14,617 nt of DNA from Pseudomonadota bacterium (GTDB lineage: Bacteria; Pseudomonadota; Alphaproteobacteria; Rhizobiales; Afifellaceae), in the NCBI GenBank assembly GCA_023417735.1, contig JAEZEK010000457.1, positions 1 to 14,617 of the forward strand, read 5' to 3'. The notes beneath the pieces are model-generated. The model was not told the DNA's origin. It was given only the letters and a program-made list of their open reading frames with translations, and made no database searches. Positions 11,222 through 11,728 of the stretch are shown piece by piece. Made by a program: the position numbers and the translations under genes. How positions within the stretch are numbered: position 1 is the first letter of the stretch; every line of letters starts with the position of its first letter.

Positions 11222-11728
11222 TTGAAGGTCGGGTCGGGTCCTGCGCCGGTCGCCATCGTCATGGGAAGCCAGTCGGACTGGCCCACCATGCGCCATGCCG
11301 CCGAACGGCTGGACGATCTCGGCGTGGCTTACGAGGCGCGGATCGTTTCGGCCCACCGCACCCCCGAGCGCCTCTACGCGTTCGCCAAGGCTGCTCGCGC
11401 AGAAGGCCGCAAGGTGATAATTGCCGGTGCGGGCGGGGCAGCGCACCTGCCGGGCATGATCGCGGCAATGACCACGCTGCCCGTCCTCGGCGTGCCGGTG
11501 TAATCGAAGGCGCTGAGGGGCCAGGACAGCCTCCTCTCGATCGTCCAGATGCCGGCCGGGGTGCCGGTGGGCACGCTCGCGATCGGCGCCGCGGGCGCCG
11601 CGAATGCGGGGCTCCTGGCCGCTTCCATCCTCGCGCTCGCGGACGAGGGGTTGGCCGAGCGGCTGGAGCGCTGGCGCGCGGCCCGGACCGCTGAAGTGGC
11701 GGAGCACCCGGCCGATGCCGTCGAGTGA
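11222..11728 (+). pseudogene. purE: 5-(carboxyamino)imidazole ribonucleotide mutase, interrupted by an in-frame TAA
   Basis: PurE converts N5-CAIR to CAIR in purine synthesis, following PurK. From TTG 11222 the frame gives 93 aa with VMGSQSDWPTM (13-23), SAHRTPER (43-50; H45 catalytic) and AGAGGAAHLPGM (68-79), ending at LGVPV. Codon 94 is TAA (11501-11503), where relatives have Glu or Gln. The same frame then continues with SKALRGQDSLLSIVQMP and GVPVGTLAIG to TGA 11728, adding 74 residues for a normal total of 168. Nothing else is damaged and no frameshift is needed. The visible part alone lacks half the fold and the oligomer contacts, so it should be inactive if TAA is read as stop. Possible causes are a base error, a recent nonsense mutation, or readthrough. 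The final TGA overlaps purK by 14 nt. The GSQSD-type sequence and the adjacent purK mark it as class I. Confidence 0.85.

Follow-up and report, generated by a model that had tools for sequence, protein, structure and literature searches.

A single in-frame TAA in a class I purE of a Faunimonas-like bacterium, very probably a consensus error or a very recent nonsense mutation

What should be made of a stop codon in the middle of a gene that is otherwise well preserved? In the stretch of DNA analysed here, 14,617 nucleotides in length and called the window below, a TAA at positions 11501-11503 of the plus strand falls in frame as the 94th of the 168 codons in a class I purE, which opens with TTG at 11222 and closes with TGA at 11726-11728 (+). 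The phenomenon of a single in-frame stop in a bacterial gene is already known. If the base is real, either the strain has only just lost the ability to make purines de novo with this copy, or a nonsense allele is segregating; if it is an error, we are looking at another case of a single base making a working gene look broken. Readthrough or recoding, which is improbable, is the only outcome that would bear on whether UAA can turn into a sense codon though both release factors read it.

The purE gene is recognizable on both sides of the stop, and the earlier note's description of a single in-frame TAA in an otherwise intact gene is accurate. The first 93 codons (11222-11500, +) match positions 2-85 of the 148 in the PF00731 profile (E 3e-38) and 1-84 of the 156 in the NCBIfam model TIGR01162, while the remaining 74 codons and the normal TGA (11504-11728, +) match positions 88-146 (E 6e-19) and 87-152 of the same two profiles. 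The TAA is flanked by LGVPV and SKALRGQDS, has a T on its 3' side (a UAAU context), and is the only damage to the gene. A GGAG at 11210-11213 (+), 8 bases before the TTG, is a putative Shine-Dalgarno-like element, assigned from the sequence, and an ATG in the same frame, at 11261, lines up with residue 1 of the protein from Faunimonas sp. B44; a scan of 11100-11800 found no sigma-70 promoter or terminator. The gene is like other class I PurE genes (N5-carboxyaminoimidazole ribonucleotide mutase; structures 1qcz and 1u11) in its profile matches on both sides of the stop and in the adjoining purK that is the expected partner, but it is unlike them in that the frame is interrupted at 11501-11503 and the translation as written stops after 93 of 168 residues. 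The purK gene (11715-12815, +), which overlaps the end of purE, is intact as had been claimed, scoring 561.8 bits against NF004676, for which the cut-off is 387.

The comparison with close relatives that the earlier note had called for gives a sense codon at the position of the stop. Among the matches listed, the nearest known PurE is that of Faunimonas sp. B44, which differs from the window's at 4 of 154 residues, and the PurE of Propylenella binzhouense differs at 14 of 154; both organisms belong to the Hyphomicrobiales, and both proteins have Glu at the stop position. In Propylenella (taken to be genome G196; locus L149), the closest relative with DNA compared, the codon is GAA. The nearest outside match to the window's PurK is likewise from Faunimonas sp. 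B44 (31 of 366 residues differ), followed by Propylenella (78 of 366). No internal stop was seen in 128 distinct purE DNAs from relatives' loci, which are the distinct best tblastn matches (E up to 1e-20) from the 145 of 149 loci that gave a match and are neither a random sample nor independent. At the site of the stop they have GAA in 45, CAG in 39, CAA in 16, GAG in 9, CGG, CGC and AAA in 4 each, AAG in 2 and five codons found once each, which is to say Gln in 55, Glu in 54, Arg in 8, Lys in 6 and other residues in 5. The expectation of Glu or Gln at this position in homologues is thus borne out in 109 of the 128, and does not apply to the rest. A PF00731 match was found in 383 of a sample of 397 genomes of the order, with no stop inside among the matches listed.

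From the codons of the relatives, one base change would suffice to create the stop. At the site, 65 of the 128 purE genes are one base away from TAA (GAA 45, CAA 16, AAA 4), including the GAA and CAA that had been named as its one-base neighbours. With these counts, and with GAA in Propylenella, we rejected the idea that two changes were needed to reach TAA. The window is 69% GC, and TAG would be its usual nonsense neighbour, since its Glu codons are GAG in 222 cases and GAA in 60. Its 16 genes contain 4617 sense codons, in which 41553 single changes are possible; 1002 of these (2.4%) make a stop, 694 of them TAG and 165 TAA. That the stop is TAA rather than TAG is nevertheless unremarkable, because Glu at this particular site is GAA in 45 of 54 relatives; elsewhere in the same genes the counts are GAA 328 and GAG 395. 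The use of GAA here fits a codon-context preference for GAA before TC, as suggested by the relatives' purK-like matches, where GAA makes up 29 of 38 Glu codons before TC versus 1040 of 2926 in other contexts, counts that repeat a few aligned sites over 128 distinct matches (at least 600 bases) and are not independent. In the window itself, GAA is found in three of five such cases. The codon 5' of the stop is GTC in Propylenella versus GTG in the window, a silent difference, and the 54 relatives include 24 with GTC and 17 with GTG.

We asked how old the stop could be with a relative-rate test of the window against Faunimonas sp. B44, using Propylenella as the outgroup. In PurE (154 sites), one substitution is found only in the window and two only in B44; in PurK (366 sites), the corresponding numbers are 8 and 13. 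Over the two proteins together there are 9 window-only and 15 B44-only substitutions, so there is no excess on the window branch. Base differences between the window and Propylenella fall at third codon positions in 38 of 42 cases before the stop and in 25 of 37 after it, and residue differences amount to 5 of 80 before and 9 of 74 after; the larger share of residue change after the stop could reflect less constraint on the C-terminal part. The only clear change in PurE on the window branch is at residue 127 (counted from the ATG), while residue 110 differs in all three proteins. Both lie after the stop, and they are too few to carry meaning. We rejected decay of an old pseudogene, given the single stop and the absence of faster protein change (one window-only versus two B44-only substitutions in 154). 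If real, the stop is probably much younger than the split from B44, because a non-functional gene of that age should hold more changes. Since purE is not accelerated on the window branch, the stop is either very young or not real, and the earlier note's contention that any gene decay would have to be very recent agrees with this result and with the intact purK.

A further PurE copy from this species was sought with the N-terminal piece (proteins up to about 163 residues only) and with the whole frame carrying an X at the stop. In each search, apart from one discarded candidate, Faunimonas sp. B44 was the nearest among the best 120 of 8000 candidates scored; its entry (P0001) represents three member sequences, which may include the window's own pieces or an intact copy. 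The discarded protein, P0241, outscored B44 in the whole-frame search, and was rejected as a protein in which the N-terminal half is repeated, encoded on a contig of 992 bases. A PurK identical to the window's (P0121) is listed on two contigs, the longer of 16175 bases, one of which may be the window's own.

The use of stop codons elsewhere in the window bears on whether UAA might have another meaning in this organism. Sixteen frames were taken as genes; they were drawn from a list of open reading frames, so that most are open by construction, and the last (13798-14616) runs off the end of the window. The 15 complete gene ends comprise 13 TGA, 2 TAG and no TAA, in agreement with the claim that at least 13 ends use TGA or TAG, and the only TAA codon within the 16 frames is codon 94 of purE; a reassigned UAA would be expected at many conserved sense sites across the genome. 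The absence of TAA ends had been put forward as a weak hint of recoding. Its weakness was rightly stated, but as a hint it tells almost nothing: 14 orthologous ends in Propylenella are 11 TGA, 3 TAG and no TAA, and purE itself ends in TAA in 15 of the 128 wider relatives, at which share a set of 15 ends would have no TAA with a probability of about 0.15 (roughly one in six). On this basis we rejected the missing TAA ends as grounds for reassignment. Release factors RF1 and RF2 each scored above curated cut-offs in all four of the relatives searched, and both of them read UAA, according to PMC4989110. No tRNA genes were found in the window.

We consider it very probable that the gene is a class I purE (N5-CAIR mutase) of the ordinary kind, forming an operon with purK, that its TAA is either a consensus error or a very recent mutation, and that UAA is still a stop. 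One sense codon would have become TAA by a single-base nonsense change, and UAA would retain its meaning. If the base is real, translation would stop after 93 residues and the C-terminal 74, containing SLLSIVQMP..PVGTLAIG, would be lost. Because this conserved part is missing, the 93-residue PurE would be expected to be inactive; no active PurE would then come from this copy, and the strain would need purine or some other source of PurE. The order in which the possibilities had been ranked before this analysis, with sequence error first, a recent nonsense mutation second and readthrough or reassignment last, held in every test run.

How the weight is divided between error and real mutation is a matter of judgement and not of computation. 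We put the chance that the organism's purE is intact, and that the TAA came from base calling or assembly, at about even. All but one codon of the gene is intact and conserved, and the finding of an identical PurK on two contigs only, with the longer at 16175 bases, suggests that the window is a short contig from a draft assembly or a metagenome. If the error rate is assumed to be 1e-4 to 1e-5 per base, multiplying by the 2.4% nonsense fraction gives a chance of roughly 3% to 0.3% for a false stop in 13.9 kb of codons, and a scan of many such stretches will therefore meet some false stops. Against an error, the window-only substitutions in PurE and PurK are not in excess over those of B44 and the other genes compared with Propylenella have no frame damage, so the contig is not error-rich. 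A real and very recent nonsense mutation, which would leave the strain or a subpopulation dependent on purines or on another PurE, we rate somewhat short of even. The stop is a single step from a codon common in relatives, and in-frame stops, which mostly last only about as long as polymorphisms do, are widespread in bacteria, as a passage of PMC7918605 reports. The present stop is like those in being single, in having a conserved frame on both sides and in the absence of long decay, but that study, in the part relevant here, demanded that a stop be found in two or more species in order to exclude sequencing error, and here one sequence is known. In 14 of the 397 genomes sampled from the order PF00731 had no match, which would accord with loss of purE, although missing assembly parts may explain them, and a second copy is possible if uncommon, with two PF00731 matches in 27 of the 397 (the second in G003 scoring 205 bits). 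Weighing against a real mutation are the intact purK, its lack of acceleration and the retention of a PF00731 match in 383 of 397 genomes; real loss of purE beside an intact purK would need to be very recent. Our literature search found no report of a premature stop codon in purE with a purine auxotroph.

The remaining explanations keep the gene working as written. That readthrough or a suppressor tRNA yields useful full-length PurE from the TAA-bearing gene seems to us improbable, in spite of the conserved frame after the stop and of the argument, made in a passage of PMC7918605, that many genes with in-frame stops still work through readthrough. Among stop codons UAA has the least readthrough, and UAAU is the most efficient bacterial termination signal, as stated in passages of PMC5289835, where the preference for U at the +4 position is described as weaker in GC-rich species and Alphaproteobacteria go unmentioned. 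Furthermore, the stop is not conserved, being found at the site in none of the 128 relatives' purE genes, and the window has no tRNA that might act as a suppressor. We think it highly improbable that in this Faunimonas-like bacterium UAA stands for Glu or Gln, whether by means of a suppressor tRNA or of an altered code, with purE functional as written; were it true, a GC-rich alphaproteobacterium would be using UAA as a sense codon while UGA and UAG remained stops. A true sense meaning of UAA here is very unlikely, and its reassignment to an amino acid in the lineage we find barely credible. Such a reassignment would accord with the fact that none of the window's 15 complete gene ends is TAA, but the chance of this result under ordinary usage, the equal lack in Propylenella and the presence of two UAA-reading release factors in all four relatives searched argue against it, as does the statement, in a part of the 2021 Codetta screen (PMC8629427), that all bacterial code changes known before it concern UGA. 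The purE stop resembles the reassignments described there (UGA to Trp or Gly) in lying within a conserved frame; it differs in the codon being UAA, in being a single case, in the 69% GC of the window and in the presence of UAA release factors in the relatives searched.

Some genomes of the order may manage without a purE of this kind. Among the 14 of 397 without a PF00731 match, some are of 4-5 Mb (G164 and G231), which could reflect either real purine dependence or missing assembly parts. We looked for purK in nine of these 14 and in a tenth genome, G238, in which the sole PF00731 match is weak. Six of the ten, G238 among them, had no match above 46.4 bits, three had strong partial matches, and one (G192) was over the cut-off. 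In G238, a frame of 432 residues (L118:646-1944) has PurC-like and PurE-like parts, both below NCBIfam cut-offs, and its best solved-structure matches are the PAICS-type two-domain proteins 4ja0 and 2h31, which we take to be animal proteins; the frames beside it are presumably anthranilate synthase-like and PurM-like. G238 was grouped in the family of the Afifella pfennigii genome (G004). The fusion suggests that an alternative route may be present in a genome grouped with that family, with contamination of G238 a possibility, and nothing links it to the window's organism, in which purK is intact.

The surroundings of purE are largely conserved. In 20 kb of the Propylenella purE contig, 14 of the 16 window genes were matched in the same order, and for nine window genes other than purE and purK the alignment with Propylenella is nearly full-length. 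Ten frames were assigned to Pfam families, purE to PF00731, and when purK and the two genes 3' of it were searched against NCBIfam, purK alone was above a cut-off. The frames at 6562-6885 and 10523-10774 each have a match in Propylenella. Between the tauE and DUF465 genes (window 8137-10435) there are an acyl-CoA synthetase-like gene and marC, which are absent between the same neighbours in the 20 kb from Propylenella. When viral contigs were scanned with the inositol-phosphatase-like gene nearby, nothing was confirmed. The frame at 13798-14616 has a weak match to ZorA (28.9 bits, with a cut-off of 100) and a 91% identical match at the same place in Propylenella, and for these two reasons it is probably not a defence gene; we take its product to be a MotA/TolQ-like membrane protein.
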